Below, piece after piece: positions 1 to 19,151 of a DNA stretch of 41,305 bases. The notes beneath the pieces are model-generated. The model ran no database searches, was not told the origin of the DNA, and saw nothing but the letters and a program-made list of their open reading frames with translations. A program made the translations under genes and the position numbers. The stretch is taken from positions 1-41,305 of the forward strand of contig JAAYOH010000002.1 of NCBI GenBank assembly GCA_012520375.1, in the 5' to 3' direction. Positions within the stretch are counted from its first letter, which is position 1; every line of letters starts with the position of its first letter. This DNA is from Clostridiales bacterium (GTDB taxonomy: Bacteria > Bacillota > Clostridia > Christensenellales > Aristaeellaceae).

Positions 1-561
1 ATGCTCCTTGAAGATATCGTATAGTACAGTTCTGGGCAGACGACCATCCGACTGCTTAAAAAACCGGGTCATGGCGCGAATACCGATCCAGCTGCAGGAG
101 CCCTCATCACTGAAATATGTAGACCATCCGCCGACTCGCGCTTGATTGCCATGCTGGTCGATACCGAAGCCAATGGCGCCTGTACCCGCGACAATGTTGA
201 TAACCGGCTTACCCGCCAAGCTTCCAGCCCAGCAAACTACAGCATCGTTGGCGATGTTCACCTTCCCGCAGCCCGCCATCAACTCATGCAGTATGGCCAG
301 CATGGTTACTTTCGTTTCTTCCACTTCACCGTAGGTAGGAACGCCGAAGGTTACTTCGGTGATTTGCGCAGACATGATGCCGGCTATTTCCAAGTCTTCA
401 CCGACAAACAAGCTCATAGCACAGCGGAAATTCAATTCACAACCTAAGCTGCTGTAATTAGAGCCGCTGTTATGCGTCGAGGCCATGATGCAACCGTATT
501 CATCCGCTATGATGATGTCTGTCTTGGTGGAACCGCCGTCCAAGCCGAAAAAGAAATATAT
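1..561 (-). CDS. BadF/BadG/BcrA/BcrD-type sugar kinase (N-acetylglucosamine kinase-like), C-terminus cut by window edge
   Basis: The frame is open for 187 codons with no stop and runs off the left edge. It shows the ASKHA phosphate-1 motif DGGST close to the N-terminus, the second phosphate loop AGTGAIGFG, and the GGWSTYFSDEGS block. These match the complete kinase at 10633-11610 almost position for position, so this is a paralogue, expected to use ATP to phosphorylate a sugar or amino sugar in the cytoplasm. It lies 14 bases behind the SIS gene and the two are probably co-transcribed. The start is odd. The strong AAAGGAGG site overlapping the SIS stop is followed 8 bases later by ATA at 561-559, and that position aligns with the paralogue's start. 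No ATG, GTG or TTG occurs at a usable place before DGGST except a TTG inside the motif region. I therefore give ATA as the tentative start. An ATT at 567 is the alternative. Confidence 0.85.
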   Translation of the reverse strand, partial: MYFFFGLDGGSTKTDIIIADEYGCIMASTHNSGSNYSSLGCELNFRCAMSLFVGEDLEIAGIMSAQITEVTFGVPTYGEVEETKVTMLAILHELMAGCGKVNIANDAVVCWAGSLAGKPVINIVAGTGAIGFGIDQHGNQARVGGWSTYFSDEGSCSWIGIRAMTRFFKQSDGRLPRTVLYDIFKEH

Positions 562-575
562 GGCAATGTCCTCCT

Positions 576-1655
576 TTAGGCTTTGGTTTGCATCAAACTG
601 GCAAAATCTTCAAATCTGTTCTTGTCGATATTATACCCACACACTTCTGAGAGATCGGAACTGAGAATCTGGCCAGGCAACAGATAATTTAGGCTGTCGA
701 CGTAATCGCAGCCGGAAGAAATCAGCGATACCTGCCGCTGATCGGCAGGCTTGTCGCCGTTCATCAATACCGTATAACAGCTGGAACCCTTTTCTTCTGC
801 GAAACGGACAAGACGCGACATACGCTCTGCACTGGAGTCCGCCGGCATCAGCGCCAGAAGGAAATTGTTGTTTGCGCCAATGCTGTTTCCAACACCATGA
901 AGGTATTCTTCAAATTCATAGGCAGTGACCGGGCGGTAGATCGTTTCCAGCAGTTTCAGTGCGCATTCCATGCCGGCACCGAGATAGGCGCCTTGGGCGA
1001 GTATCAATAGGGCTGGCATGTTCTTCATTTCATCCGCGTTGTCAGCAACCCATCCGACTACCCTGCGCACGTTTTCGCTATGGTTTGTCACGAATGTTTC
1101 AAAGGCGGCGATGATGCTTTCGTAGCGTGCCTGTTGAATTTTACCCTTGGCCAGCGCCAGCTCTAGTGCAGCGAGCATCAGGACAACCGCGCTGCAGGTT
1201 ACGCCCTTGGTCTTTGCACCGACAATTTCCGGCGAATCCCAGGGCAATTGGATAAGAATCCCGGCCTCTTGTGCGACTGGAGAAGACGGATTCTCGGTTA
1301 TTGCAATGATGGAACGTCTGTCCAAACCACATTGCTTGGCGGCATCGATGGTGTTGGTGCTGTAGCCTCCCTGAGAGACCAGCACTAGCATGGATTTTTC
1401 AGTGGAAAACCTCCTGGCCGTATCAGCCCGGGAAGGCATGCATACCGTGGCTTCAACCTGGAGGATGTCTTCTATGAAGGGTTGCGCAATGAGCGCAGCG
1501 TTCCTGGAACTGCCAGCGCCAAACAGGAATATACGGTCGACGCCTCTATTGAGAAATCTGTCAATGACAGGCTGGGCAAGGCTTTTCCGCTTTGTTAGAA
1601 GTTCCTGAGTACACGAAGCCTCTTCCTGAATATAGGCAAACATCTGACGACTCAT
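576..1655 (-). CDS. SIS-domain sugar isomerase / GlmS-FrlB-AgaS-type aminosugar-phosphate enzyme
   Basis: This is a 359-residue protein with two SIS (sugar isomerase) domains, the layout of the isomerase half of GlmS and of FrlB/AgaS-type deglycases and deaminases. Visible motifs are FGAGSSRNAA (about 45-54), SQGGYSTNT (94-102) and the second-domain block ending EFEEYLHG (247-254), which in this family carries the catalytic Glu and His. There is no glutamine amidotransferase domain, so it is not a full GlmS. The family acts on ketose or aldose 6-phosphates and amino-sugar phosphates in the cytosol. It is followed by a BadF kinase, which could supply its phosphorylated substrate, and is divergent from a ROK repressor. 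The start has AAAGGAG 9 bases upstream and a perfect promoter about 45 bases upstream. The exact substrate cannot be read from the sequence. Confidence 0.88.
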   Translation of the reverse strand: MSRQMFAYIQEEASCTQELLTKRKSLAQPVIDRFLNRGVDRIFLFGAGSSRNAALIAQPFIEDILQVEATVCMPSRADTARRFSTEKSMLVLVSQGGYSTNTIDAAKQCGLDRRSIIAITENPSSPVAQEAGILIQLPWDSPEIVGAKTKGVTCSAVVLMLAALELALAKGKIQQARYESIIAAFETFVTNHSENVRRVVGWVADNADEMKNMPALLILAQGAYLGAGMECALKLLETIYRPVTAYEFEEYLHGVGNSIGANNNFLLALMPADSSAERMSRLVRFAEEKGSSCYTVLMNGDKPADQRQVSLISSGCDYVDSLNYLLPGQILSSDLSEVCGYNIDKNRFEDFASLMQTKA

Positions 1656-1686
1656 GATTATATTTCTCCTTTGTTATATTTGGGGC

Positions 1687-1727
1687 TTGACAAACGTTAT
1701 TATAATCGATATAATAAATACTGTCAA
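1687..1727. promoter_or_regulatory. Overlapping divergent promoters, both full sigma-A consensus, with central operator-like palindrome
   Basis: The plus strand has TTGACA (1687-1692), a 17-base spacer and TATAAT (1710-1715), facing the ROK gene. The minus strand has TTGACA (1727-1722), a 17-base spacer and TATAAT (1704-1699), facing the SIS gene. Both hexamers match the consensus fully in both directions, and the two promoters share one centre at 1707. The centre is a palindrome, TTATTATA-5-TATAATAA (1697-1717), a plausible operator for the adjacent ROK repressor. Only one polymerase could occupy the element at a time. Confidence 0.85.
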
Positions 1728-1805
1728 GTGCACAGAGCTTAAATTGTCGCTGAGGGTGTTTGAGGCACTAAATTAATGTATAGTATAGCAGAGATACGAT
1801 AGCCG

Positions 1806-3029
1806 ATGATAAGAAACATGGAATGGATCAAAATTACCAATATTAAACGGGCAATCGACTACGCATGCCAGATGGAATACTTTTCCAAGCGAGAGATGGC
1901 GGAGGCTTTGGGTGTTTGCTTTACAACAGCTTCCAAAATCGTCAATATGCTTGAAAATGTCTCCTTGCTGGATGAGGTGCCCCCTCCCAAGAATCGTGAG
2001 AATCGTGCGCTCGGCCGCGTGACAAAATGGTATAGATTGTTGGACACAAAGCTTTCCTTTTTGGTCATTAATTTTGCCAACACATCGCTGATTACCATTG
2101 CGTTGGTAAACCTGCGGCATGAAGTGGAAGCAAAAATTAAGTTTGTCATAGAAAAAGAAGAGGACTGGCAGGATGTTATCAGGAAGATGCAGAACACCTA
2201 CCGTACGTTACTAGAAAAAACCGGTCAAAAAGATGAAAACGTGGTGGCGGTAGGCGTATCTATTCAGGGTAGCTATAACGCAGCAGCGGATATTCTGTAT
2301 GGGATCGTGCAGCCGATAACCCACGGCAGACACATAGGTGCGGATTTTAAAGCACTGTTTTCCAAGCACGTTGTCATTCAGAATGATATTGATATGGCTG
2401 CGGCTTATATTGCGCGGACAATCAGTTGTAACCACCTTATATATGTCTACTTGGATTACCAGATCGGAATCGGAGTTATTAACGATGGCAAGGTTCTCAG
2501 CGGTGCCAATGGCCTGACCACCGAGATTGCCCACGCACCCTTAGGGGACAGCGGGAGAGTATGCCCAGGCTGCGGAGCGCGAAACTGCTTAGAGCTCAGC
2601 CTCGGGAAAGGTGCGTTCCTGGAGCATTGCTACGGTAGAAAATTCCCGATCTGCGCGAATGGATATAAGAGGGAATGGGCAGATTTCATGGAGTCCGTAC
2701 GCAAGGGCGAACCGCGCGCGATGAGCACTATTATTCAGAAGGCAGAACTGTTAACACGAATGCTGGTTATCGTATTGACGGTCACCCGGTCGTCCACTAT
2801 CATGATCGGGGGCATATGCAGGGAATTGTTTGAGATGCTGGACTCTCTGTTGGAGAAAAATATGACAGAATGGAAGAAACAATATAGTGTTGACGAGATC
2901 CTGTATGATTCAAACGCGGAAAGGACCATTTTGATTGGCACGATGGATGCTGTGTATCAAAAATGGTATCCCGATTTTGAAAGCGGTCAGTTATGGATTG
3001 ACCGAGGGGAGGCGTGGTCCCCTAGCTGA
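1806..3029 (+). CDS. ROK-family transcriptional repressor
   Basis: This 407-residue protein has a winged helix-turn-helix at the N-terminus (about residues 26-50, FSKREMAEALGVCFTTASKI) fused to a ROK sugar-binding/kinase-like domain. The ROK domain shows the VIQNDIDMAAA block (about 190-200), where the ROK catalytic Asp lies, and the zinc-type cysteine signature CPGCGARNCLE (253-263). ROK repressors of the NagC/XylR/Mlc type release DNA on binding a sugar or sugar phosphate. It is divergent from the SIS/kinase pair and upstream of the CUT1 operon, so it probably controls one or both, with its operator in the shared promoter element. The ribosome site before 1806 is weak, and 1818 is an alternative ATG in frame. 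The predicted plus-strand transcript has a leader of about 80 bases. Confidence 0.9.
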   Translation: MIRNMEWIKITNIKRAIDYACQMEYFSKREMAEALGVCFTTASKIVNMLENVSLLDEVPPPKNRENRALGRVTKWYRLLDTKLSFLVINFANTSLITIALVNLRHEVEAKIKFVIEKEEDWQDVIRKMQNTYRTLLEKTGQKDENVVAVGVSIQGSYNAAADILYGIVQPITHGRHIGADFKALFSKHVVIQNDIDMAAAYIARTISCNHLIYVYLDYQIGIGVINDGKVLSGANGLTTEIAHAPLGDSGRVCPGCGARNCLELSLGKGAFLEHCYGRKFPICANGYKREWADFMESVRKGEPRAMSTIIQKAELLTRMLVIVLTVTRSSTIMIGGICRELFEMLDSLLEKNMTEWKKQYSVDEILYDSNAERTILIGTMDAVYQKWYPDFESGQLWIDRGEAWSPS

Positions 3030-3113
3030 TTCTCTTCCCATGGTTCCATAGGTATCGGTATAATGGGTGCCATTTTCCCGAAGGGAGTCAGCGGAAAAAC
3101 ATATAAATTGATC

Positions 3114-3230
3114 TTGTCCTTATTGTGATAGTGATTTTAATATATGGGTATTTGTTGTAATCATCATAAAAAGGCGGTTAGTGAAAGACTTTCCTATGAA
3201 ACTTGAACTAATTGCAGGAAACTGCATTAG
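3114..3230 (+). promoter_or_regulatory. Candidate promoter and leader hairpin of the CUT1 operon
   Basis: TTGTCC (3114-3119), an 18-base spacer and TAATAT (3138-3143) form a plausible but imperfect promoter ahead of the binding-protein gene. Further down, CTAATTGCAG-GAAA-CTGCATTAG (3208-3230) is a hairpin with a GNRA-type tetraloop and one bulged base, ending 12 bases before the Shine-Dalgarno site. It may stabilise the 5' end of the message. Confidence 0.4.
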
Positions 3231-3255
3231 AAAATACAAAAAAGGAGAGAATACC

Positions 3256-4536
3256 ATGAAGAAGATTTTATCCATCGTCCTGACCCTGATACTGGTCGCA
3301 GTATGCTGTTCCGCACTGGCGGACGAGTATATCATCCAGTATCCGACGCACCAGATTGGCACGAATTCCTCTGCACCGGCGAATGCGGCCATGGTTCAAG
3401 GCTTCAATGAGCTGTATGAAGGCACGTATGAAATCCAGGTGGAAGATGTGCCTGGCGACACCAACTATCGCGACAAGATCCTGAACCTATTGCAGTCCAA
3501 GGATCTACCCTGTATGGTTTACGGTTCGAACCTGATCGATCCTTTCTACGCTCAGGAAGCTTTCGTGGATCTGAAACCCTACCTGGATGAAGATCCCGAG
3601 TGGGCTGCTGGGCTGTCTATTGCCAATATTGAGCAAAACAGTCGCGACGGTAAGGTTGTGGGTATTGCCAACGAGACCCAGTTGATTGGCTATTACTACA
3701 ACAAGGAAATCTTTGCGGAATGCGGCTTGGAAGGCCCTGCGAAGACCTGGGATGAATTCTTCGAGCAGTGCGCCATCATCAAGGATCACGGCTATATTCC
3801 GCTGTCCATGCAAACTGGTGACAACGCCTGGTGCTCCGGGCTGTTCCTGTCTGCTATGATCGACTACTGTGCTGGTGATCAGGAATCCTTCCTGGATTCC
3901 AATGAGAAAACCACCGATTACAATGTGGATTACTTCTATGATGCGCTGAACATGCTCAAGCGCATTTGGGACGAGGGCTATACCACCGAAGATTCTATCG
4001 GCGGCATGTATGAGAATGCTGCCATCAACTTCATCTCCGGCAACACCGCTATGATTGCCAACGGTGTTTGGATGATCGGTTCCTTTGCCGATCCGTCCCT
4101 GGGCGGCAGCGAAGAATTCGCGGAGAAGGTTGATATAGCGTTGTATCCTGAAGGCTTCTGCATGGAGAACCCGCTGGATGGCTGGATTGTTACCCCCGGT
4201 GACGAGGAGCACGTAGCAGCTGGTATCGCCCAGCTGAAGTATTGGACTTCCACCGACACCATGCTGAACAACCTGCGTGTGTGCGGCCTCGTGCCCGGCG
4301 GCAATTTGGAGATCCCCGATGACGTGATTGAGTCCAACCGCATGCTGGGTAAACTAATCGCCCTGAAGAGCGAAGATGGTGTGACCACTGCCCACTCCAT
4401 CGGCAACCGTATGTATGGCAACGTCGGTACTGAAGTATTCTCCCAGTATCTCACACTGTTCGCTCAGGGTGGATGCACTGCGGAAGAGATCGCCGCCGCC
4501 ATGACCGAATATGCTCAAGAGTACGCTGCGAAGTAA
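3256..4536 (+). CDS. Extracellular sugar-binding protein of a CUT1 ABC transporter
   Basis: This 426-residue solute-binding protein is of the MalE/UgpB-type cluster used by CUT1 (oligosaccharide, glycoside) importers. It begins with a signal peptide (MKK, then a hydrophobic stretch ending SALA before DEY) that would be cut by signal peptidase I. Two cysteines precede SALA but no good lipobox is seen. The body has the typical QLIGYYYNKEIFAECGLEGP segment and the late NGVWMIGSF block of the family. I chose ATG 3256 because AAAGGAGAG lies 5 bases upstream and it starts exactly at the signal peptide. An upstream in-frame start at 3181 would add non-signal residues. It heads an operon with two CUT1 permeases, but an MFS gene separates them. 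The ligand is unknown. Confidence 0.92.
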   Translation: MKKILSIVLTLILVAVCCSALADEYIIQYPTHQIGTNSSAPANAAMVQGFNELYEGTYEIQVEDVPGDTNYRDKILNLLQSKDLPCMVYGSNLIDPFYAQEAFVDLKPYLDEDPEWAAGLSIANIEQNSRDGKVVGIANETQLIGYYYNKEIFAECGLEGPAKTWDEFFEQCAIIKDHGYIPLSMQTGDNAWCSGLFLSAMIDYCAGDQESFLDSNEKTTDYNVDYFYDALNMLKRIWDEGYTTEDSIGGMYENAAINFISGNTAMIANGVWMIGSFADPSLGGSEEFAEKVDIALYPEGFCMENPLDGWIVTPGDEEHVAAGIAQLKYWTSTDTMLNNLRVCGLVPGGNLEIPDDVIESNRMLGKLIALKSEDGVTTAHSIGNRMYGNVGTEVFSQYLTLFAQGGCTAEEIAAAMTEYAQEYAAK

Positions 4537-4559
4537 TACCAGACAATAATAACCCTACG

Positions 4560-4598
4560 TCAGCCGTGAAGACTGGTTCATCCAGGCTTCGCGGCTGA
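4560..4598 (+). other. Intercistronic hairpin behind the binding-protein gene
   Basis: TCAGCCGTGAAG and CTTCGCGGCTGA form a 12-pair stem (one G-T wobble) with a 15-base loop, not followed by a T run. Such hairpins commonly protect the 3' end of highly expressed binding-protein messages. Confidence 0.6.
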
Positions 4599-4621
4599 TG
4601 CTGGAATCAGGGAGATCGCCT

Positions 4622-5836
4622 ATGCATAGGAATTCGGCTTCATTGGCGCGCTCTATCGGATGCATCCAGGCATCATATATTACAATGCAGTGCCTGAGCA
4701 CTTCGTTTTTTGTGCAAGCATACCAGCGCTTTGGCATTGACAAAATGACGATTAGCCTGATCGTCATGCTGTGTAATGCCACGGGAATCATATTCCAACC
4801 CGTGTGGGGACATTTTGTAGACCGCTCAAACCATCCCAGGGAAACCGTACTGGCATGCTGCGGCTTCAGTGTGGTGTGCTATTTTGTGCTGATGTATTCC
4901 AGGGGAACGGTATGGCTGATTACCTTGATGGCTATGCTGTTTTACGCCACCTTCCATTGCATGATGACCTTGATTGATTCTTGGGTTGCCAAACTGATTC
5001 GGGGCGGCTTGGAAGTAAACTACGGGCAAACCCGGAGCATTGGCTGCGTAGTATATGCGGTGGTAGCCGTGGCATTCGGCGCTTTGGTGACCCGGTTCGG
5101 CCAGCTGATTGCACCGTACTGCTTTGGCTTAGTATTCATCATTCTTTGTTCTGCGCTTGTGAGAGTGCCCAATCCGAAGGATGATTCCAGGGAAACTAGT
5201 AAGGTTTCCATCAGGGAAATGATCGGCTATCTCATGGGTAACAAGGCTTATTTAATCGTAGTATCCGCCCTGTTTTTGAGCACCTTTACTTCGTTTACAT
5301 TGAGCACTTTTTTCTCGGTTCATGTATTTGAACTGGGCGGCAACGAGTTAATCGTGGGAATCGGAACATTCTTTATGGCGATTTCTGAATTTCCGTTCAT
5401 GTTCCTGTTTACTACAATAAGCAAGCGGCTGAAGTGGTCTTCCATGACGGCGCTTGTTGTGGCTATGATATTCTATTCGGCTCACGCATTTCTGCTTGGC
5501 AGTGTCCGTCAAATAGGTCAGGTAATTGCCGTCAGCGTGCTTCACGGGCTCTCCTACGGTATCTACCAGCCTGCGAAGGTGATGTTTGTGGTTGAAAACG
5601 TCGAGTCCCGCTATATAGCTACTGCTCAGATGCTGATGAATGCGCTAGGGCAGAGTCTGCCTGCGGTGCTAGCCAGTCCGGTTAGCGGCGCGATTTCCAC
5701 GGTCACGTCCACTGGAGCGATGCTGCGTATGATAGCCGCTTTTTCGTTGGTTGGCGCCATAGTAATTGTCGTGGGCAGGAGGTTGCTAAGGGATATAAAC
5801 ATTAAACACGTCCATAAGCAGGACGTTCCGAGGTGA
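4622..5836 (+). CDS. Major facilitator superfamily transporter (LacY/nucleoside-symporter-like subgroup)
   Basis: The protein has 404 residues and about twelve hydrophobic segments. The early WGHFVDRSNHPRE loop matches the MFS loop 2-3 signature, and NYGQTRSIGC after helix 4 resembles the YGxxRxxGS block of the LacY/NHS-like (MFS_1_like) subgroup. That subgroup moves sugars or nucleosides with protons. I chose ATG 4622 because AGGGAG lies 6 bases upstream. The in-frame ATG at 4598 has no ribosome site and lies in the upstream hairpin. The gene is inserted between the CUT1 binding protein and its permeases, and its end lies 6 bases before the next start, so it is clearly part of the operon. 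Whether it imports a second substrate or exports a product cannot be told. Confidence 0.88.
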   Translation: MHRNSASLARSIGCIQASYITMQCLSTSFFVQAYQRFGIDKMTISLIVMLCNATGIIFQPVWGHFVDRSNHPRETVLACCGFSVVCYFVLMYSRGTVWLITLMAMLFYATFHCMMTLIDSWVAKLIRGGLEVNYGQTRSIGCVVYAVVAVAFGALVTRFGQLIAPYCFGLVFIILCSALVRVPNPKDDSRETSKVSIREMIGYLMGNKAYLIVVSALFLSTFTSFTLSTFFSVHVFELGGNELIVGIGTFFMAISEFPFMFLFTTISKRLKWSSMTALVVAMIFYSAHAFLLGSVRQIGQVIAVSVLHGLSYGIYQPAKVMFVVENVESRYIATAQMLMNALGQSLPAVLASPVSGAISTVTSTGAMLRMIAAFSLVGAIVIVVGRRLLRDINIKHVHKQDVPR

Positions 5837-5842
5837 GGCTAT

Positions 5843-6724
5843 ATGCATAAGGAAAAACTGAAGTGGTGCCTGGTGTTCCTGGTTCCGGTTGTGGTGATGT
5901 TCTGTTTCCTTTATGCCGTTCCGCTTGTCAAAGTAATCTATACTTCTTTCTTTGATTACAAGCTTACAGTTAAGGGGATGCAGTTTTCTGGGTTCAAGAA
6001 TTATGTCGAACTGTTTACCCAGGATTCCGTGTTCCGGGTTGCCTTGAAGAACACGATAGTGTGGATTCTGCTACACACATTCCTGCACGTAGCTTTAGGC
6101 GTGTTCCTGGCGCTGGTACTGAATCGTAAACCACGCGGTTGGCAGTTTGTACGCACGGTGTACATGAGCCCGAACATTATCGCGGCATCGGCAATGGCGC
6201 TGATTTGGCGCATCATATACAATCCCGACTGGGGTATCGTCAATGGCTTCCTGAAAGCCATCGGGCTTGGTTCGCTGGCGCAGAACTGGCTGTTCGGCGT
6301 GAATACGGCGTTCGGTGCAGTGACCGTGATCTGGTTTATCTACGCCGGTTACACCACCACGCTTGTCCTGGCACGCCTGCTGTCGATACCTTCGGATCTA
6401 CAGGAAGCGGCATTTATCGACGGGTGCACACCGATCCAGGTAGATTTTCGCATACTGTTGCCCATCGCCAAGGATACGATTACCACGACAATGATTATGG
6501 CGGCTTCCTACATGCTAACGATGTTCCCACTGATTTATATGACAACCGGCGGTGGCCCGGGGAACAAAACCTACAACCTTTCGCTGTTCTTGTACCAAAA
6601 AGCGATGATTGAAAATAACTACGGCTATGCAAACGCTGTGGGCGTGGTAGTAATCATCATGGGTATGGTATGTATGAATCTGATTAAATGGATGATGGGA
6701 GAAAGGGGGGACAGACAGACATGA
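5843..6724 (+). CDS. CUT1 ABC transporter permease (MalF/UgpA type)
   Basis: This 293-residue membrane protein has six predicted transmembrane segments and the cytoplasmic EAA loop, EAAFIDGCTPIQVDFRILLP (about 192-211), which docks onto the ATPase subunit. It is short for a MalF relative, matching the UgpA/LacF-type proteins of Gram-positive CUT1 importers. Its stop overlaps the start of the second permease (ATGA), which indicates translational coupling and a heterodimeric channel. No ATP-binding subunit is encoded nearby, so it probably uses a shared housekeeping ATPase of the MsmX type, as many Firmicutes CUT1 systems do. Confidence 0.93.
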   Translation: MHKEKLKWCLVFLVPVVVMFCFLYAVPLVKVIYTSFFDYKLTVKGMQFSGFKNYVELFTQDSVFRVALKNTIVWILLHTFLHVALGVFLALVLNRKPRGWQFVRTVYMSPNIIAASAMALIWRIIYNPDWGIVNGFLKAIGLGSLAQNWLFGVNTAFGAVTVIWFIYAGYTTTLVLARLLSIPSDLQEAAFIDGCTPIQVDFRILLPIAKDTITTTMIMAASYMLTMFPLIYMTTGGGPGNKTYNLSLFLYQKAMIENNYGYANAVGVVVIIMGMVCMNLIKWMMGERGDRQT

Positions 6725-7587
6725 ACGCTACGGTAGAAATACGGTCATTGAAGGCCACTACTCGCGCAAGGATTATCGCGGGCAAAGTATTCGTCTACTT
6801 GGTGATGGCGTGCATGGTGGTCGTATGCTTGTTCCCCATTGTGTGGATTATCCTTTCCTCGTTCAAAACGAACGCTGAGGTGTTCAAGGGCGCCTTCTTC
6901 CCGGGACAAGTGAATCTCGACGCTTACAAGTATGCGCTAAATATGGCGCCGATCATGCGTTTTTTTGTCAATTCGGTGTTCATCTCGGTGACAGCGATGC
7001 TCATCAATGTAACCGCTGTGTCCATGGGCGCCTATGCTTTTTCGCGGGGGGTTTTTAAGGGTAAGGAAACGCTGTTCACGATTATCATGGCCGCAATGGT
7101 ACTTCCTTCTACGGCTGTAATCCAACCGGTATATATGCAGCTTAGGACACTGGGTATGCTGGACACTAAGGCGGGATTGATCTTGGTTTACTGTTGCTTC
7201 GGTATGCCTGTGGGATTAATGTTACTACGCACGTTTTTTTCCAGTATACCACTGGAGACCGAGGAGTCTGCGGCTATCGACGGTGCCAGTTTTGTCATGA
7301 CGTTTGTCAGGATTTCCGTGCCGATGGCTAAGCCGGGCATCGCGACGGTCATGGTGCTGCGCTTTCTTGAGTATTGGAATGAGTTTACCTATGCGCTGGT
7401 GCTAACAACATCCGTCAACAACCGCACGATGCCGCTGTCGCTGGCGTATTTCGTGTCGTCGTTCAGTTTCAATTATCCGGCAATGTTCGCGGCGATAACG
7501 CTGTCGGTGCTCCCAGCGCTGGTCATATTTGCGCTGTTCAGCCGTCAAGTGGTAAACAGCATGGTAGCTGGAGCTGTCAAGGGCTGA
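6721..7587 (+). CDS. CUT1 ABC transporter permease (MalG/UgpE type)
   Basis: This 288-residue inner-membrane protein has the MalG-type N-terminus (a long first helix ending in FPIVWIILSSFK), six predicted helices and the EAA-type loop ESAAIDGASFVMTFVRISVP. I chose ATG 6721 because it overlaps the preceding stop in the ATGA arrangement and has a purine-rich GGGGGGA site upstream. An in-frame start at 6688 would overlap the previous gene by 36 bases. It pairs with the upstream permease to form the channel for the 3256-4536 binding protein. Confidence 0.93.
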   Translation: MNATVEIRSLKATTRARIIAGKVFVYLVMACMVVVCLFPIVWIILSSFKTNAEVFKGAFFPGQVNLDAYKYALNMAPIMRFFVNSVFISVTAMLINVTAVSMGAYAFSRGVFKGKETLFTIIMAAMVLPSTAVIQPVYMQLRTLGMLDTKAGLILVYCCFGMPVGLMLLRTFFSSIPLETEESAAIDGASFVMTFVRISVPMAKPGIATVMVLRFLEYWNEFTYALVLTTSVNNRTMPLSLAYFVSSFSFNYPAMFAAITLSVLPALVIFALFSRQVVNSMVAGAVKG

Positions 7588-7624
7588 AACTCCTACTCTA
7601 AAGACTCTTCCCGGTTGTATTCTG

Positions 7625-7639
7625 TGACACATAGTGTCA
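7625..7639. promoter_or_regulatory. Perfect 15-base palindrome before the dehydrogenase gene
   Basis: TGACAC-ATA-GTGTCA sits 15 bases before the AAGGAGG site of the next gene. It could be an operator or a small hairpin that sets the relative expression of transporter and enzyme genes. No promoter hexamers are evident beside it. Confidence 0.4.
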
Positions 7640-7660
7640 TATAAATAAGGAGGAAATAAA

Positions 7661-8752
7661 ATGATTCGTGTTGGTCTTATAGGCTGCGGCGGTATTGCCC
7701 AACTAGCTCACATTCCGATGTTGCGTGACCTGCCGGATATGTATACCATAGAGGGCTGCTATGATCTTTCCCCGTCTCTGCAGGAAACGGTTGCTCATCG
7801 CTATAACATCCCAAAGGTTTATACCAGCGAGGACGATTTAGTCAACGATAAGGACATCGACCTCGTGTTTGTACTGACATCCGATCCCCTGCATTGCACG
7901 ATGGCACTCAAAGCTATCGAAGCAGGCAAGCATGTGCTGGTAGAAAAGCCCCTATGCATGAATAGTGTAGACATCGAACGCCTAATCGCTGCCCAGAAGG
8001 AGCATCCGGGTGTGAAGGCCATGTGTGGGTATATGCGCCGCTACAGCCCGGCCTTCCTGAAGATGAGGGAGTTGCTTGAAAACGATAACCGTCCCATCCA
8101 GTATATCCGCTTCCGCGACATCATCCGCGAGGGAGATTTCTACATCGGGCAGACCTGGACACCGTTGCGTTCGCGCAACCTGAGCGATATGCCAGCCGGT
8201 GCTTTTGAGCAGATGAAGCAGATGAAGTACGAGCAGCATTCCATTGGTTTGGGCGAGGACGCCACCGATATGCAGCGCAACGCCTATCAGATGCTGCTGG
8301 GCTTGGGCTGTCACACCTTTGCTGCCGTACGGGAACTTGTGGGCCTTCCGAAGGAGATCAAGGCTGTTCTAACTTCCGGAAATGGTACGCATTTCGTGTC
8401 TCTGCTGCAATATAACGGCTTTATCGGCACCTATGAAATGATCAATGACCAGGATGTTGTGCAGTTTGATGCCGCCATCGAGGTGTATCAGGGCGACCGG
8501 CTAATCCGCATCAAATACGATACGCCGTATCTGCGCTATTTACCCAGCACCTGTGAAGTTATCGATTCTACAAAGAAGGATACCAAAACTACGCTGTATG
8601 GGCCGGATTACCATGATCCCTTCAAGAATCAGCTGATTCATCTATACGACTGTATTGTCAACGATAAGCAGCCCAAGAGCGACTTCAACGATGCCCTGCA
8701 AGATATAGTATTGTTCGAGAAAATGGCCCGGATGGTCGTCAGCGAAGGCTGA
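7661..8752 (+). CDS. Gfo/Idh/MocA-family NAD(P)-dependent sugar/cyclitol dehydrogenase
   Basis: This 363-residue protein is of the standard family length. It has an N-terminal Rossmann fold with GLIGCGGIAQ (5-14), the family hallmark EKP (95-97) that places the catalytic Lys, and the catalytic-histidine region LGLGCHTF (His about 218). Members oxidise a ring hydroxyl of inositols, sugars or glycosides, or reduce keto-sugars, using NAD(P). It directly precedes an IolE-like enzyme. In myo-inositol catabolism and in 3-keto-glycoside pathways a dehydrogenase of this family makes the keto compound that a TIM-barrel enzyme then dehydrates, isomerises or cleaves. The start has AAGGAGG 8 bases upstream. 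The substrate is unassigned. Confidence 0.93.
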   Translation: MIRVGLIGCGGIAQLAHIPMLRDLPDMYTIEGCYDLSPSLQETVAHRYNIPKVYTSEDDLVNDKDIDLVFVLTSDPLHCTMALKAIEAGKHVLVEKPLCMNSVDIERLIAAQKEHPGVKAMCGYMRRYSPAFLKMRELLENDNRPIQYIRFRDIIREGDFYIGQTWTPLRSRNLSDMPAGAFEQMKQMKYEQHSIGLGEDATDMQRNAYQMLLGLGCHTFAAVRELVGLPKEIKAVLTSGNGTHFVSLLQYNGFIGTYEMINDQDVVQFDAAIEVYQGDRLIRIKYDTPYLRYLPSTCEVIDSTKKDTKTTLYGPDYHDPFKNQLIHLYDCIVNDKQPKSDFNDALQDIVLFEKMARMVVSEG

Positions 8753-8773
8753 AGTGTTAAGGGAGGACAAGAA

Positions 8774-9649
8774 ATGAAAGTTGAACTAGCAACCTGTCCC
8801 TGTTCGTGGGGAATTTTCTGGCCGGACGGCGCTCCGACCTATGTTCCTGCGGATTCATTTCTCGATCAGGCAGCGAAAGCAGGCTATGTTGCCCTGGAAT
8901 TGGGGCCGGTGGGTTATCTGCCTACAGATCCGACAGAATTGAAAAAAGCGCTGGATAAGCGCGGTCTCGTGGCGCGGGCGGGCACAGCCTGTTACAAGAT
9001 TGACGAGATGGCGAGTTTTGAGGATGTACGCGAACGTGCTACGGCTCTGTGCAGCCTTCTGCAGTCGTTTGACGTAAAGTATCTAGTGATGATGGACGAA
9101 TCCCCAGCGGCCAAGACTTACGAATCCAAGGCTGGCTTCAGTCAGGAGCGCATTATGAAGAATCTCAGCATTATTAGGGATTACGTAGAATTCGCTAAGG
9201 GCTATGGCGTGACCGTAGTCTATCACCCACACATGCGTTCTATCGTGGAAACGGAAGCGGAAATCGAGCAACTCTTGGATGTCACCGGTTGCATGCTGTG
9301 TTTGGACACCGGTCATCACCAGGCAGTGAATGGCAAGCCTCTTCAGGGCGATCGCACGGCGATAGACTTCTACTTGAAGCATGCCGATCGTATTCCGTTC
9401 TTGCACTTCAAGAATGTTAACGGCGATGCGATGCGCAAGTATATGGCCAATCAAAAATGTGGCGTGCAAGTGTTCTGCCCGCTGGATGAGGGGATAATCG
9501 ATTTCAATGAATTCAAGAAGGCCCTGGAGCAGACCGACTATAACGGCATCGGTGTAGTGGAACAGGATATGGCCCGCCAGCCCGCAGAGTTGAGCTTCAA
9601 GCTTTCGGTCAGAAACCGTGAGTACCTGGAACGAATGGGAGTCGTCTGA
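8774..9649 (+). CDS. IolE-like TIM-barrel sugar isomerase/epimerase or inosose dehydratase
   Basis: This 291-residue protein belongs to the xylose-isomerase-like TIM-barrel family and most resembles IolE (myo-inosose-2 dehydratase). Features are the CSWGIFW opening, YHPHMRSIVET (150-160), CLDTGHH (176-182) and LHFKNV (210-215), and a final VVEQD block. These carry the divalent-metal ligands of the family. IolE removes water from 2-keto-inositol. Relatives catalyse epimerisation, isomerisation or beta-elimination of keto-glycosides. It begins 21 bases after the dehydrogenase and ends just before a terminator, so the pair forms the enzymatic tail of the CUT1 operon. Inosose dehydratase is the closest named function, but the other iol genes are absent from the window. 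Confidence 0.9.
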   Translation: MKVELATCPCSWGIFWPDGAPTYVPADSFLDQAAKAGYVALELGPVGYLPTDPTELKKALDKRGLVARAGTACYKIDEMASFEDVRERATALCSLLQSFDVKYLVMMDESPAAKTYESKAGFSQERIMKNLSIIRDYVEFAKGYGVTVVYHPHMRSIVETEAEIEQLLDVTGCMLCLDTGHHQAVNGKPLQGDRTAIDFYLKHADRIPFLHFKNVNGDAMRKYMANQKCGVQVFCPLDEGIIDFNEFKKALEQTDYNGIGVVEQDMARQPAELSFKLSVRNREYLERMGVV

Positions 9650-9682
9650 GCTGAGCCGTAGGCACTCTATGTGTCAGGAGGG

Positions 9683-9720
9683 GGGAGGATAAACTAGTTT
9701 CCTCCCTTTCTTGGTTTTTT
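9683..9720 (+). terminator. Rho-independent terminator of the CUT1/enzyme operon
   Basis: GGGAGG and CCTCCC enclose the self-complementary AAACTAGTTT, and the stem is followed by a T-rich tail ending in six T (9715-9720). Confidence 0.75.
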
Positions 9721-9743
9721 ATTCACAATGAACATGGGGGACG

Positions 9744-10598
9744 ATGAATGTAATGCGAGACAGAAGCCGTGGCGCCATTCGAATTTTACTGGCGGCAGCA
9801 TTGTGGAGCACCCAGGGCTGGTTGATCAAAGCCATACCCTGGAGCCCAATCTCCATACTAGGTCTTCGCGCGATATGCGTTAGCCTGTTCGTCTGTATCT
9901 GTCGGCGCAGCTTTGCTGTGGTAAACAATCACGGGACATGGTTGGCGGCACTGAGTGTCTCCGTGACTTCTGTTTTGTATGTAGCCGCCAACAAACTGAC
10001 CACAGCTGCAAATGCCGTGGTGCTACAATACGCGATGCCGCTTTTTGTGATTGCTATTGATTGGCTCCGTGACGGCAAGCGGCCTGGCTTATGGGACATC
10101 ATAACAGTGCTGGTCATCGCTGCCGGGATTGCGTTGTGTTTTGCGAACAATCTGAGCGGAGGACGGTTGATCGGTAATATCCTTGCCTTGCTTTCGGCAG
10201 GCACCTATTCCGTTATGTTCTATATTTCGCAAAATCAGAAGGTGGATTCCCTGCAATTCATTTATCAAGGCTTGTTAATCAGTTCGCTTGGTGTATTGTA
10301 TATCCCGTTTGATCCTGGATTTTATATCACGGTCAGGATCGTGGGCAGGTTTACCCTAGCGGCGGCGGTGCTATTCGGAGGATACATGTTTTTTTCGTCG
10401 GGTATGCGGATGGGAGTTTCTGCGATTCATGCGGCAATCTTATCCAATGTGGAACCGATTTTTAGCCCCGTATTTGCATGGATGATGATCGGAGAAAAAC
10501 CGGGAGCGTTGACGGTTGTAGGTGTGGTTGTTGTGCTGGTGACTGTCATGGCTTATAACATCATGAACTCTGCGCAGTGTCATGAGCTAAAGCAATGA
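9744..10598 (+). CDS. EamA/DMT-superfamily transporter
   Basis: This 284-residue membrane protein has ten hydrophobic segments arranged as two EamA repeats. The first opens with ILLAAALWSTQGWLIK. The second contains the AAILSNVEPIFSPVFAWMMIGEKP block characteristic of drug/metabolite exporters. Members move amino acids, sugars or metabolites across the membrane, usually outward. It lies behind a terminator but shares orientation and close spacing with the BadF kinase, so it may export a by-product or import the kinase substrate. A GGGGGA site is suitably placed before ATG 9744. ATG 9753 is an alternative. Confidence 0.87.
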   Translation: MNVMRDRSRGAIRILLAAALWSTQGWLIKAIPWSPISILGLRAICVSLFVCICRRSFAVVNNHGTWLAALSVSVTSVLYVAANKLTTAANAVVLQYAMPLFVIAIDWLRDGKRPGLWDIITVLVIAAGIALCFANNLSGGRLIGNILALLSAGTYSVMFYISQNQKVDSLQFIYQGLLISSLGVLYIPFDPGFYITVRIVGRFTLAAAVLFGGYMFFSSGMRMGVSAIHAAILSNVEPIFSPVFAWMMIGEKPGALTVVGVVVVLVTVMAYNIMNSAQCHELKQ

Positions 10599-10632
10599 TA
10601 TAGAAATGTAAACATGACAAAGAGGTAGTGAA

Positions 10633-11610
10633 ATGAAAAAGATGTTTTTCATGGGCTGCGATGGCGGCAGCACGAAATATGCATATGCAGTCTGCGACCA
10701 AACAGGACATGTGCTAGTACAACATACTGAGCCCGGTTTAAATTACATGAGGGGGACAGCGCAGAGTTTCGGCATGAGCATAAAGCGCCATTTGGCTGAA
10801 GTGCTTACAAAAGCTGACATTGAGGAAGAACAGATCAGCTATGCCGCATATGGACTGTCGGGCTACGGTGAAGGCCGTACGGTAAGCGAGGATATGTTCC
10901 GGATAATATCGTCGGCACTAGGGCATGACCGGCTGGTGGTTTGTAACGACAGCGTCATCGGATGGAGCGGCGCGTTAGCATCCAGACCGGGCATATCGGT
11001 GGTTTCAGGAACAGGATCCATCGCCTACGGTGAAGATGCCCATGGTATGTCCGCCCGAGCCGGTGGATGGTCGCTCGATTATGGCGACGAAGGTTCTTCG
11101 TGCTGGGTTGCCAAGCGTGCCATCAATGCCTTTTTCCGTCAGGCTGACGGCCGGATGCCCCGTACACTCCTGTATGATTGGTTTGTCCAACGCTTTAGGC
11201 TGGAAAATCCCCTGTATTTCATTCAAGCGATTCATGATTACGTGAACGGTAATTCAGCACGTTGCGCGTCCCTGCAGCGGGAAATTTTGCCATTGTATGA
11301 AGCGGGAGATCCCTGCATCAGGGAGATTTATAGGCAGGCAGCAGCAGAGCTGGCTCAGCTGGTGGCGGCTCTTCAAAGGGAGCTGTCCTTTGAGGGAGAG
11401 ACAATGCAGGTTTCTTATTCCGGTGGCCTGTTTAAAGGCGGCAGCTGCATTTTAGATCCTTTCAGCAATGAAATCGAAGCGCTTGGTGGCGAATTGGTTA
11501 TGCCGCGCTTTGGCCCATTGACTGGTGCACTCGGAATCGCTGCGCGAAACTGTCTCGGAGGTGGGGAGCTGAACCGCATGATGGATCGAGCAGGCAGTGA
11601 AATCGCCTGA
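10633..11610 (+). CDS. BadF/BadG/BcrA/BcrD-type sugar kinase (N-acetylglucosamine kinase-like)
   Basis: This 325-residue ASKHA-fold protein has the phosphate-1 motif DGGST (10-14), the phosphate-2 loop VSGTGSIAYG, the RAGGWSLDYGDEGSS block and the adenosine motif SGGLFKGG near the C-terminus. The family includes eukaryotic-type GlcNAc kinase and bacterial glucosamine/GlcNAc kinases. The iron-sulfur reductase activators of the same superfamily carry cysteines that are missing here. It is the complete paralogue of the truncated gene at the left edge. With the facing deacetylase and the SIS enzyme it fits amino-sugar salvage. The ribosome site AGAGGTAG lies just upstream of ATG. It is convergent with the next gene. 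Confidence 0.9.
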   Translation: MKKMFFMGCDGGSTKYAYAVCDQTGHVLVQHTEPGLNYMRGTAQSFGMSIKRHLAEVLTKADIEEEQISYAAYGLSGYGEGRTVSEDMFRIISSALGHDRLVVCNDSVIGWSGALASRPGISVVSGTGSIAYGEDAHGMSARAGGWSLDYGDEGSSCWVAKRAINAFFRQADGRMPRTLLYDWFVQRFRLENPLYFIQAIHDYVNGNSARCASLQREILPLYEAGDPCIREIYRQAAAELAQLVAALQRELSFEGETMQVSYSGGLFKGGSCILDPFSNEIEALGGELVMPRFGPLTGALGIAARNCLGGGELNRMMDRAGSEIA

Positions 11611-11716
11611 TTCGTGGGTAAAAGCACAGAAAATTAACGAAAGCCGACCAGCGGCAGCACCAGTTGATCTGATTATTGTTCAGAGATGTAACATCGAAGC
11701 CGTGATGCCATGGGAT

Positions 11717-12817
11717 TTATTGAATTTCATTGGCCCGGATCTCGCGGTGCTCTACGGCAGAGCGATAGAAAGCATCCAGGATACGTGTGACATTCAGCGT
11801 TTCCTCGGGCTTTATAGGTAGGGGGCATCCGAACTGAACATGATCCACCACATCCAGGATTAAATCGCGGTGGCCGGAGTTCCAAAGGCGCGCTTCGGCC
11901 GTAGTAGGGAAATGGATATCGGCCTGATGCCCGGCGTATTCGGAAAATACCGTATCTTCGGGTAAACACAAGCCCGCCCGAGTACCAGCAAGGCGGATAT
12001 TACGCTCGTCAGGTAGGTTTACTGCCCAGGATGTCTTGAAATCGATTCGGCAGCCGTTTTCTAATACGATACTTCCAGCAGCGAATTCCTCCACATCCAT
12101 TTCCGACGGATGGAATCGATGGGGCACCTTCCCATCCGGGGACGAGGGTTTATTGTCATCTTTCGATGGAGACTTCCGATTGCCAATGTGCGTGGCTGCG
12201 AAACCGGTGACCGATTCAAAACGTGGGTTGCCAAGGATCCAAAGCAATGCATCAAGCTGGTGTACGCCCAGATCGCACATACAGCCGCCTCCGTTGTCGG
12301 CCTTGCGGTGAAATCCTCCCCAGTCGGGAATGCCGCGCCGGCGCAAGTATGTGAATGTAGCGTAATAAATGTCACCCAGCTCGCCCCGTTCCACCAGATT
12401 GCGAGCCAGGACTATACTCGGATCGTAACGCATGTTCTGGCAAGCAACCAGCGAACGATGGTGGTCATTCGCGCATTGATAAAGCGCTTCCGCCTCTGCG
12501 GCGCAGATTGAAAGGGGTTTTTCACAGATTACATGAGCTCCGCATTCCAAGGCAAGCTTGGACAGCGGTCCATGTGATTGGTTTGGCGTACATATGCAGG
12601 CCAAATCGATGCGCTGCTCCCTAAACATCTTTTCACAGTCTGTATACCAATGGGAGAAGCCGTGGGTTTTCGCCATCGCTTTTGCATTCTCGGCTCGCCT
12701 GCTGCATATGGCTGTCAGCTCCACCCGTCCAGCCAAGGCTTTCAGTGCCGGGATATGGGCATCGTTCGCAATTCTTCCTGCTCCGATGACCACTGCCCGC
12801 AGTTTGCTTTCTTTCAT
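11717..12817 (-). CDS. Gfo/Idh/MocA-family oxidoreductase (second copy)
   Basis: This 366-residue dehydrogenase has the Rossmann motif VIGAGRIAND (10-19), CEKP (98-101) and DLGVHQLD (182-189), the last holding the metal-free catalytic Asp/His pair of the family. An insertion around SPSKDDNKPSSPDG is hydrophilic and probably a surface loop. It is not a close copy of the 7661 enzyme, so it likely oxidises a different position or substrate. I place the start at 12817 with AAGGA upstream. The open frame extends to 13006, but that extension overlaps the deacetylase gene and has no dehydrogenase character. It is the second gene of a two-gene minus operon with the LmbE deacetylase. Confidence 0.92.
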   Translation of the reverse strand: MKESKLRAVVIGAGRIANDAHIPALKALAGRVELTAICSRRAENAKAMAKTHGFSHWYTDCEKMFREQRIDLACICTPNQSHGPLSKLALECGAHVICEKPLSICAAEAEALYQCANDHHRSLVACQNMRYDPSIVLARNLVERGELGDIYYATFTYLRRRGIPDWGGFHRKADNGGGCMCDLGVHQLDALLWILGNPRFESVTGFAATHIGNRKSPSKDDNKPSSPDGKVPHRFHPSEMDVEEFAAGSIVLENGCRIDFKTSWAVNLPDERNIRLAGTRAGLCLPEDTVFSEYAGHQADIHFPTTAEARLWNSGHRDLILDVVDHVQFGCPLPIKPEETLNVTRILDAFYRSAVEHREIRANEIQ

Positions 12818-12855
12818 GATCCTTTCCTTCCGCATATGCGTTGATGATGGCCAGA

Positions 12856-13665
12856 TCAGAAGGGAAACAAGGCATCCAGCTGCGCTTTCGTCAGTTGTTC
12901 GCCGTACTCGCACAGCTCCAAAGCCTCTATGTAGCGCGTGTGCCGGCCGGCTTCGCCATACTTGGCGACGAGCATATCGCGAACATCCTCGCCAAATTTG
13001 GCGCACAGCGGCCCGCGCGTGCGTTTAAGCCATTCCAGACGGCCTGCGTTGTCGTCTTCATCAGGCATTTTAGGATCAATATTGTGATCGACCCAAGGTA
13101 GCCACTCGTACATCTGCGACGTGTGCTGATGAAGCATCTCCATTTTTCGATCAAAAACCGAATCGATATCAAATACCAAATCCGGCTGGAAAGGATAGGG
13201 TTTTTTAAAAAAATCCTGCATATAGAATACTGCAGGCATGTGATCCATAGCCGGTGTAAGCGGACACACATTCGGTACCTGTACCATGAACGAACAATCC
13301 TGAACTAACATGGAAGTCGCCCGGTGATCAGGATGGTAGTCACAGGGACGATGAGTGAGAATCACATCGGGATTGAATTCGCGGATAGAGCACATCATCA
13401 TCTTGCGCTCTGCCAACCCGGTAGTCAAGCTGCCGTCGTCGATCTCCAGCATTTCATATTCAACACCTACCAGCGCGGCGACCTTTTCGGTCTCACGCTT
13501 CCTGCGAACTGCTATGGCACCGCCCATTTGATCGTAATGCCCCGAGCAGCCGTTGGTCGCAGTGAGAAACTTAACCTTTTGACCCAGATCCAGCAACTTC
13601 AGCGCAATACCCGCCGCATACTCACAATCGTCCGGGTGAGCTCCAATGACCATGTATCTGTACAT
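12856..13665 (-). CDS. PIG-L/LmbE-family N-acetylglucosamine-type deacetylase
   Basis: This 269-residue protein has the zinc motif AHPDD (9-13) and the second ligand block HPDH (111-114), which together define the LmbE/PIG-L fold. Known members remove acetyl from GlcNAc-inositol (MshB, PIG-L), GlcNAc-malate (BshB) or chitobiose. Residues such as NGCSGHYDQMGG and the RxxE segment (57-60) are family-typical. The neighbouring dehydrogenase starts 38 bases after its stop, and a good promoter precedes it. Together with the nearby GlcNAc-kinase-like and SIS enzymes it argues that the locus handles an N-acetylated sugar. The start has GGGAGG 7 bases upstream. Confidence 0.92.
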   Translation of the reverse strand: MYRYMVIGAHPDDCEYAAGIALKLLDLGQKVKFLTATNGCSGHYDQMGGAIAVRRKRETEKVAALVGVEYEMLEIDDGSLTTGLAERKMMMCSIREFNPDVILTHRPCDYHPDHRATSMLVQDCSFMVQVPNVCPLTPAMDHMPAVFYMQDFFKKPYPFQPDLVFDIDSVFDRKMEMLHQHTSQMYEWLPWVDHNIDPKMPDEDDNAGRLEWLKRTRGPLCAKFGEDVRDMLVAKYGEAGRHTRYIEALELCEYGEQLTKAQLDALFPF

Positions 13666-13698
13666 ATTCGTGCCTCCCTAACGCTATGAAGTTAACTT

Positions 13699-13727
13699 AG
13701 CATACTATATAGCGATAATTATGTCAA
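13699..13727 (-). promoter_or_regulatory. Promoter of the deacetylase/dehydrogenase operon
   Basis: On the minus strand TTGACA (13727-13722), a 17-base spacer and TATGCT (13704-13699). The predicted leader is about 27 bases. A short inverted repeat, CGCTAT...ATAGCG (13682-13715), brackets the -10 and start site and could be an operator. Confidence 0.7.
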
Positions 13728-13764
13728 TCATAAAATGTATGGTCACATATTTGTTGAAGCACTA

Positions 13765-14205
13765 TGCCATCGCTATAATTTCGCTGATCCTCGTAAGTCC
13801 ATCTGCGCACAGTATCTGTATATCATCCACTCCCCTGGTTCTTGGGCTCGTTCAGCACAGATAGCCAGTATTTCGCGCTTTCATTCTCACCAACCTAAAT
13901 AAAAAGGACTACTTTCTGCCCTCGCAGGTATTCCCCAGCATCACATAAGCCGCCAGCTTCCGGATTACGTTGTTCTCTCCGCACCGAATAGTGGATCGCA
14001 TCGATGAACACCATCGGATAAACCTCGTTTAAAGGCCGTTTCTGCCACTCCTCAATCTGGGGAACGAGTTTGTTCGTTACGTCGAAGATAAAACCTCCGG
14101 GACATCAAATCCGTAGATCTCCTTCAGCGTATCGGCAATCTGACGGGTCGTCATCCCCTTGGCGTACATTGAGATGATCTTCTGGTCAATATCGGTAATG
14201 TTCTT
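13765..14205 (-). pseudogene. Decayed IS256-family (mutator) transposase fragment
   Basis: Minus-strand frames carry recognisable IS256 transposase segments in order: IISMYAKGMTTRQIADTL, then after a frameshift QIEEWQKRPLNEVYPMVFID plus AIHYSV (with the first catalytic Asp), NNVIRKLAAYVMLG, GENESAKYWLSVLNE, and DIQILCADGLTRI (with the second catalytic Asp). At least three frameshifts and several stops interrupt it. The N-terminal third and the C-terminal third with the catalytic Glu are missing, and I see no terminal inverted repeats. It is an inactive relic. It fills most of the gene-free stretch 13666-14370, which otherwise holds only the two flanking promoters. Confidence 0.85.
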
Positions 14206-14247
14206 CTACACCCCATATTAGGGCAACTTTGCATGCAGCAAGTGCGT

Positions 14248-14277
14248 TTGACGGTTTCTCTTCAGCTGTGATACAAT
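14248..14277 (+). promoter_or_regulatory. Promoter of the hydroxypyruvate-isomerase-like gene
   Basis: TTGACG (14248-14253), an 18-base spacer and TACAAT (14272-14277). Downstream the leader holds GACAGTGTC and GTGTC repeats (about 14308-14335) that could fold or serve as an operator. Confidence 0.55.
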
Positions 14278-16548: not shown

Positions 16549-16553
16549 GCGAC

Positions 16554-19146: not shown

Positions 19147-19151
19147 GACAG

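Follow-up and report, generated by a model that had tools for sequence, protein, structure and literature searches.

Gene content of the locus

The window analysed here, a stretch of 41,305 nucleotides from a Clostridiales bacterium on which all coordinates are given, begins with a locus (positions 1-13665) that brings together a sugar importer, two Gfo/Idh dehydrogenases, an IolE-like TIM barrel and a group of amino-sugar-type proteins. A first-pass annotation had named 13 genes in this region and read their motifs as intact; all 13 were located, and each scores above the Pfam gathering score for its named family. We tentatively interpret the locus as a system for the non-hydrolytic catabolism of an N-acylated amino-sugar conjugate, most likely one between a hexosamine and inositol or another cyclitol. 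We hold this reading with somewhat less than even confidence; its activities are predicted by homology and its substrate is a guess.

Most of the locus forms a single run on the plus strand. A ROK-family repressor gene (1806-3029; PF00480, 87.3 bits) is followed by a CUT1 importer composed of a sugar-binding protein (3256-4536; PF13416) and two BPD_transp_1 permeases, A (5843-6724) and B (6688-7587; both PF00528), with the gene for an MFS transporter (4598-5836; PF12832/PF07690) standing between binding protein and permeases. The run continues with the dehydrogenase Gfo1 (7661-8752; PF01408), the IolE-like barrel TIM1 (8774-9649; PF01261), an EamA/DMT transporter (9744-10598; PF00892, 81 bits) and the BadF-type kinase BadF2 (10633-11610; PF01869, 114 bits), which closes it. 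Strand switches set two gene pairs apart from this run, both on the minus strand. Upstream are a second BadF-type kinase, BadF1 (1-543; PF01869, 84.2 bits; 39% identical to BadF2), whose gene is cut by the 5' contig start, and an SIS protein resembling the GlmS isomerase domain (576-1655; PF01380). Downstream, separated from each other by 38 bases, are the dehydrogenase Gfo2, which has the usual C-terminal domains (11717-12817; PF01408, PF22725 and PF02894), and a PIG-L/LmbE deacylase (12856-13665; PF02585, 80.6 bits against a gathering score of 28.2) with AHPDD and HPDH motifs.

The palindrome TTATTATAATCGATATAATAA (1697-1717) lies between the SIS and ROK genes and is a candidate ROK operator; a weak partial match to it (four mismatches in 18) occurs upstream of the PIG-L gene. 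The nearest solved relative of the binding protein is the chitin-oligosaccharide binder 7eho, in a weak match that covers residues 126-280 only. Among the 15 proteins of the locus region that were scanned, neither glycoside-hydrolase nor ABC-ATPase families matched at E 0.001; the first of these results agrees with the first-pass annotation, which had seen no glycoside hydrolase, and the importer has no ATPase within the locus.

TIM1 and Gfo1

IolE is the nearest solved relative of TIM1, both by sequence against the PDB and as the first Foldseek match of its predicted model (mean predicted local distance difference test score, pLDDT, of 73.2). The Foldseek matches also include DgpB-C (7drd, rank 15), AtHYD (8ro4) and the lyase AL1 (8tcd); a sequence search of the PDB with an E limit of 1 brought up no known eliminase. 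Residues E42, H151, H153, D178, H181, H211 and E263 are invariant in all nine aligned sequences, including the true IolE encoded on contig C85 of the same genome, and E42, H151, H153, D178, H211 and E263 are kept in all 13 sequences of a wider TIM1 alignment. Strands 5, 6, 7 and 8 of the predicted model contain, or end with, H151, D178, H211 and E263. PMC10628242 describes, for the O-glycoside β-eliminase AtOGE, His132 (β5), Asp163 (β6), His189 (β7) and Glu233 (β8), with His134 as the base. The H151-x-H153, D178, H211 and E263 residues of TIM1 match this order, by comparison with that published description and not by direct alignment to AtOGE. On this basis the Glu, His and Asp residues are a predicted metal site, and TIM1 may be a metal-dependent β-eliminase or dehydratase that carries out metal-assisted removal of a proton beside a ketone with β-elimination, as do IolE and AtOGE. 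An eliminase-like site in a protein whose nearest solved relative is IolE lends weight to the first-pass suggestion that the substrate is oxidized and then cleaved.

Gfo1 matches PF01408 only; its C-terminal part, peculiar to its subfamily, has no Pfam match. K96 and H218 are invariant in 12 full-length members, that of the window included. The predicted model of Gfo1 (mean pLDDT 49.8) was too poor for use. Distances among Gfo1 and TIM1 sequences correlate at 0.98 over 13 rows, a value reached in none of 9999 permutations, but one for which co-inheritance alone suffices; several of the rows barely differ from one another, that of the Spirochaetia Gfo1 is truncated where its contig ends, and that of the Roseateles TIM barrel contains one stop. 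No counterpart of Gfo2 or of a second BadF gene was seen in the other loci compared.

Amino-sugar-type proteins

The nearest solved relative of BadF2 is the N-acetylmuramic acid (MurNAc)/N-acetylglucosamine (GlcNAc) kinase 8zo3 (E 1.8e-27), and it scores 74.2 bits on the NagK model NF046058, for which the cut-off is 370. The SIS protein likewise falls below the curated cut-offs of the GlmS-type model (109 bits; cut-off 381) and of the NagB-II model NF046059 (47.4 bits; cut-off 430). In its alignment to the GlmS structure 1moq, residues K234, E237 and H253 are conserved, at positions corresponding to catalytic residues of GlmS. For PIG-L, the unnamed protein 3wl4 is the nearest solved relative and a diacetylchitobiose deacetylase (8bgn; E 1.4e-15) the second; its score on the bacillithiol deacetylase model BshB1 is 89.2 bits (cut-off 182.5). 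BadF2 and the SIS protein are proposed as a hexosamine kinase and an amino-sugar-phosphate deaminase or isomerase.

Conservation in two other genomes

The gene set recurs beyond chance, with seven genes contiguous in a spirochaete and most of the set on one contig of a second genome. In Spirochaetia bacterium MS502-93 (L006), a one-strand row encodes counterparts of PIG-L, the binding protein, the MFS transporter, the two permeases, TIM1 and Gfo1, with identities in that order of 48, 54, 37, 56, 58, 59 and 63%. The PIG-L gene stands 85 bases upstream of the binding-protein gene on the same strand.

The second genome, G914, belongs to another family of the same class as the window genome and is listed as 99% complete. 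Its contig C70 carries the MFS (39%) and TIM1 (68%) counterparts, then genes that read as sensor- or regulator-like, followed by ROK (28%) and SIS (33%) and, after three further genes, by a BadF kinase (48% identical to BadF1 and 41% to BadF2) that stands before the genes for the binding protein (58%), the permeases (62 and 56%) and Gfo1 (69%). Only 46 bases after Gfo1, and in the same direction, comes a type II GAPDH (414 bits; cut-off 185). It is followed by a PGK-like protein (317 bits; cut-off 883), two transketolase-like genes (the first by reading, the second with 273 bits against a cut-off of 488), an IolB-like gene (95 bits; cut-off 205), IolD (993 bits; cut-off 715) and a DMT gene, 30% identical to that of the window, which ends the locus. 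The interval between SIS and BadF (L026, 8353-11059) encodes proteins resembling a 2-hydroxyacid dehydrogenase and a dihydroorotate dehydrogenase, the latter with ferredoxin domains, as well as one DUF3830 protein.

IolD in this row points to a link between the set and inositol catabolism. The TIM1 orthologue is the sole IolE-family match in G914 (82 bits; cut-off 290), which makes TIM1 the one recognized candidate for supplying IolD there; the IolD substrate would come either from TIM1, from an enzyme that escaped recognition or from a missing part of the genome. The window genome encodes IolE (395 bits; cut-off 290), two IolG copies (476 and 439 bits on TIGR04380; cut-off 355) and IolD (878 bits; cut-off 715) on contig C85, so that TIM1 and Gfo1 are additional, divergent copies. 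Open reading frames near these genes on C85 (L033) begin, by reading, like the GAPDH-II and PGK of G914; inositol genes are paired with lower-glycolysis genes on C70 of G914 (L026/L027) and possibly on C85.

Close relatives of the pair are rare. At E 1e-50, Gfo1 was found in two of 391 genomes of the class, the window genome and G914, the latter being the one hit in its order (one of 58 genomes) and in its family (one of one). TIM1 at E 1e-40 was found in the window genome alone (one of 398 genomes of the phylum) and at E 1e-30 in two of 150 genomes of the family, the other being a 32% match beside a Gfo/Idh protein 21% identical to Gfo1. The DNA of 7000-13700 was detected in one of the two genomes of the genus, that of the window. 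A search of a genome-contig collection returned two loci, one of them a mere 29% partial match. Nothing was retrieved from viral contigs with TIM1 and Gfo1 profiles or from plasmids by blastn with 7661-11610.

Related loci on plasmids

A protein-level search at E 1e-40 gave 29 plasmid records encoding full-length relatives of Gfo1, and 13 of these were examined. A shared feature is the proximity of a Gfo/Idh gene to a gene for a sugar-phosphate-isomerase-type TIM barrel: the two are adjacent in the window, in the spirochaete and on contig C60 of the window genome (see below), and a TIM-barrel gene lies within the retrieved stretch of all 13 plasmid loci (the TIM1 type in nine and a different, shorter type in four). 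Six of the 13 (two Ensifer, two Shinella, Sinorhizobium RAC02 and one labelled Roseateles) also encode a ROK kinase together with a NagB-like protein. Annotated as a 6-phosphogluconolactonase, the Shinella representative of the NagB-like proteins scores 109 bits on the NagB model (cut-off 237) and 31 on the 6-phosphogluconolactonase model (cut-off 124); the remaining five share 70-96% identity with it. The plasmid pair and the kinase and GlmS-like SIS of the window belong to different families but probably perform the same steps, which gives some support to the coupling of a kinase with an amino-sugar isomerase or deaminase advanced in the first-pass annotation.

Three plasmid loci reached with TIM1 only and lying outside the 13 (Priestia, Sinorhizobium numidicum and R. 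etli) have a TIM-barrel gene beside a Gfo/Idh gene among other neighbours. The NagB-like gene of the Roseateles-labelled record is matched as two separate segments (L040, 6420-7201), and the annotation of Martelella sp. NC18 splits the genes for the TIM barrel and the binding protein (L044, 8146-11394); decay or sequencing error could account for either case. In Sinorhizobium mexicanum, a 475-residue gene separates the TIM-barrel gene from that of the importer ATPase (L039, 8693-10120).

Genomic setting and recurrence within the genome

The G+C content of 1-13665 is 0.503, compared with 0.587 for 16500-41305. A broken Mutator-family transposase remnant (13700-14340, minus strand; a 42-residue stretch with 27.8 bits against PF00872) lies between PIG-L and the next TIM-barrel gene, on the border of the low-G+C block. 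Given the low G+C content and the remnant beside PIG-L, the block is probably acquired DNA. The Rfam scan gave two tRNAs and nothing else.

Two further loci of the window genome resemble the set. On C60 (L008, 251-5833, at a contig end), a CUT2-type permease and binding protein are encoded with a carboxylesterase and with Gfo1-like and TIM1-like proteins (42% identity each); this block is also low in G+C, with an abrupt step at about 6 kb. On C6 (L049, 2061-10180), genes for a CUT2-type transporter and for a TIM barrel stand divergent to those for ROK, PIG-L (29%) and Gfo/Idh proteins of other subfamilies. The combination of importer, deacylase, Gfo/Idh and TIM barrel therefore occurs at least three times in this genome, built from different parts, and this threefold recurrence supports deacylation as a step joined to the Gfo/TIM chemistry.

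Downstream of the locus, a hydroxypyruvate-isomerase-like TIM barrel (14371-15129) opens a stretch (14371-21088) that also encodes an M24/creatinase-like protein and, for a CUT2-type importer, the ATPase, two permeases and the binding protein; this is possibly a further catabolic set.

Proposed pathway

In the pathway that we propose, the CUT1 binding protein and permeases would import an N-acylated hexosamine-cyclitol conjugate and PIG-L would strip its acyl group. Gfo1 would then turn a hydroxyl group into a ketone, on the cyclitol ring, and TIM1 would take a proton beside the ketone and expel the group on the β-carbon; were that group the glycosidic oxygen, the conjugate would split without hydrolysis. 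The freed hexosamine could be phosphorylated by a BadF kinase and its phosphate converted by SIS to fructose-6-phosphate and ammonia, feeding glycolysis. The cyclitol part would become a trihydroxycyclohexanedione, the substrate of IolD, which is encoded on another contig here and in the Gfo1 row in G914. On general chemical grounds, the same dione could arise if a glycosyl oxygen, and not water, were the group lost from the β-carbon. The MFS and DMT transporters would move a by-product, the former perhaps exporting a cleavage product or serving as a second importer, and the ROK protein would repress the whole set. A narrower proposal, which we consider unlikely, is that TIM1 is a lyase that cuts a hexosaminyl-inositol from the inositol side after Gfo1 has made the ring ketone, expelling the intact amino sugar where IolE would expel water and yielding the IolD substrate and free hexosamine in one step.

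Several observations weigh against the proposed pathway. The likeness to inositol enzymes stays below the curated cut-offs: TIM1 scores 102 bits on the IolE model TIGR04379 (its orthologues 83 and 91, and the C60 copy 119), while Gfo1 and Gfo2 score 97 and 97.5 bits on TIGR04380. Apart from this likeness the inositol link comes from one genome, G914, and the IolD of the window genome lies outside the window with its own IolE and IolG beside it. In VIA-align comparisons, IolE ranks first for TIM1 at Z 25.3 but is on a par with Art22, another isomerase, at Z 24.9. The nearest solved relatives of the SIS protein are the function-unknown SIS proteins 3g68, 3knz and 2aml (98-109 bits), with GlmS at 41-45 bits. 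The remaining nine intergenic stretches hold no convincing second copy of the candidate operator. TIM1 and Gfo1 share a contig in G914 but are some 15 kb apart there, and SIS and ROK show low identities to their counterparts in that genome. BadF, SIS, ROK and DMT have no match on the 11.8-kb spirochaete stretch, whose contig ends inside Gfo1. PIG-L has no match on the 47-kb contig of G914, although the same query found the spirochaete gene, nor genome-wide in G914 in a search run without a positive control. Among the plasmid loci, seven of 13 are without the NagB-like/ROK pair, two (those of A. vitis and Martelella mediterranea) lie close to GH38, and none of the 13 stretches matches the PIG-L, SIS or BadF of the window at E 1e-8.

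The first-pass interpretation is thus partly supported. The set is kept together in the spirochaete and in G914, and the neighbourhood check proposed in that annotation turns out divided, with the core of importer, Gfo/Idh and TIM barrel holding together and PIG-L and the kinases occurring independently of it. Because of this independent variation we give less credence to deacetylation as a fixed step, a claim that the absence of PIG-L matches in G914 and in the 13 plasmid stretches speaks against.

Alternative explanations

The main alternative, a different oxidation-elimination scheme, is plausible, if somewhat unlikely: Gfo1 would oxidize C3 of an imported, deacylated glycoside, TIM1 would eliminate the aglycone from C1 in the manner of AtOGE or the C-glycoside deglycosidases, a second Gfo/Idh protein and another TIM barrel would rehydrate and reduce the sugar, and the aglycone would exit through the MFS or DMT transporter. 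The partner types are those of known oxidation-elimination modules, the active-site order of TIM1 is that given for AtOGE in PMC10628242, two Gfo/Idh genes and the TIM barrel at 14371-15129 are nearby, DgpB-C, AtHYD and AL1 are among the Foldseek matches and two related plasmid loci stand beside GH38. However, the nearest sequence and Foldseek match is IolE and not an eliminase, in G914 IolD and an IolB-like gene adjoin the set while TIM1 is the genome's sole IolE-family match, and an amino group at C2 would probably make the chemistry awkward. The linkage to IolD would also suit a simpler arrangement, in our view clearly improbable, in which the importer, Gfo1 and TIM1 use inositol or a simple substituted inositol and BadF, SIS and PIG-L serve another pathway. 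That many Gfo1/TIM1 loci are without PIG-L, BadF and SIS matches, and that strand switches isolate SIS/BadF1 and Gfo2/PIG-L, would fit such a division. It sits poorly with BadF2 ending the plus-strand run after DMT, with the G914 BadF and spirochaete PIG-L genes each preceding the binding-protein gene, and with the recurrence of an unrelated kinase/NagB-like pair in plasmid operons.

We give very little weight to a rhizopine-type catabolism of aminocyclitols (scyllo-inosamine derivatives) in which PIG-L would remove an N-acyl group. MocA is a dehydrogenase and MocC is IolE-like, and Gfo/Idh and IolE-like genes occur on many rhizobial plasmids. According to PMC10107442, rhizopines are inositol-derived amines whose catabolism requires moc genes including mocA, mocB and mocC. 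Action on an inositol derivative is what the two systems would have in common. PMC10107442 pairs MocB with an inositol ABC transporter in engineered strains, whereas the importer here is of the CUT1 type; the BadF kinase and GlmS-like SIS would be left unexplained, PIG-L is a further difference, and the likeness is drawn from descriptions of the moc system. Hardly credible, finally, is an artefact of chance or binning that assembled unrelated sugar genes on a low-G+C, possibly mis-binned contig. Low G+C next to high-G+C DNA, here and in the C60 block, and the transposase remnant just outside PIG-L would accord with it, but in both cases the change in G+C falls within a single contig, and gene order is kept in two other genomes.

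Comparison with known systems

The hexosamine-cyclitol pathway proposed here shares parts with several described systems. Like myo-inositol catabolism (IolG, IolE, IolD and IolB), the locus combines a Gfo/Idh protein with an IolE-like barrel, with IolD in the G914 row; unlike it, the locus adds a kinase, SIS and PIG-L, its Gfo1 is without the usual C-terminal Pfam domains, Gfo1 and TIM1 fall short of the IolG and IolE cut-offs, and true IolE, IolG and IolD are already present in the genome. The oxidation-elimination deglycosylation systems (DgpABC/CGE, AtOGE with AtHYD, the levoglucosan pathway and AL1-type lyases) share a Gfo/Idh protein, a barrel with H-x-H, D, H and E residues and the lack of a visible glycosidase, but here amino-sugar-type kinase, deaminase and deacylase genes are present, IolD is linked in G914 and the PDB sequence matches of TIM1 hold no eliminase. 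GlcNAc/MurNAc salvage (NagK/MurK, NagB-II and NagA) follows the same logic of kinase and isomerase or deaminase, whereas the locus has PIG-L and no NagA among the scanned proteins, and its BadF2 and SIS proteins score far below the NagK and NagB-II cut-offs. The diacetylchitobiose deacetylase route of chitin use shares the PIG-L family, with a deacetylase among the nearest solved relatives, but the locus has the Gfo/TIM pair and no glycoside hydrolase. The first-pass annotation had recognized no familiar pathway in this combination, and PIG-L or amino-sugar genes joined to such a Gfo/TIM pair were likewise not found among the open-access papers listed; the parts are of known kinds and their combination appears to be undescribed.

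Implications

Glycoside cleavage by oxidation and elimination, without hydrolysis, has come to attention only lately in studies of how bacteria use sugars, and the set described here would extend it to amino-sugar conjugates and possibly to amino-sugar-inositol conjugates. If TIM1 were indeed the lyase considered above, glycoside breakdown and inositol catabolism would be fused and a glycosidase would be unneeded. A function would follow for the pair of Gfo/Idh and IolE-like proteins found in the window genome, in G914, in the spirochaete and on rhizobial plasmids, and head groups of the glucosamine-inositol type would be indicated as nutrients.

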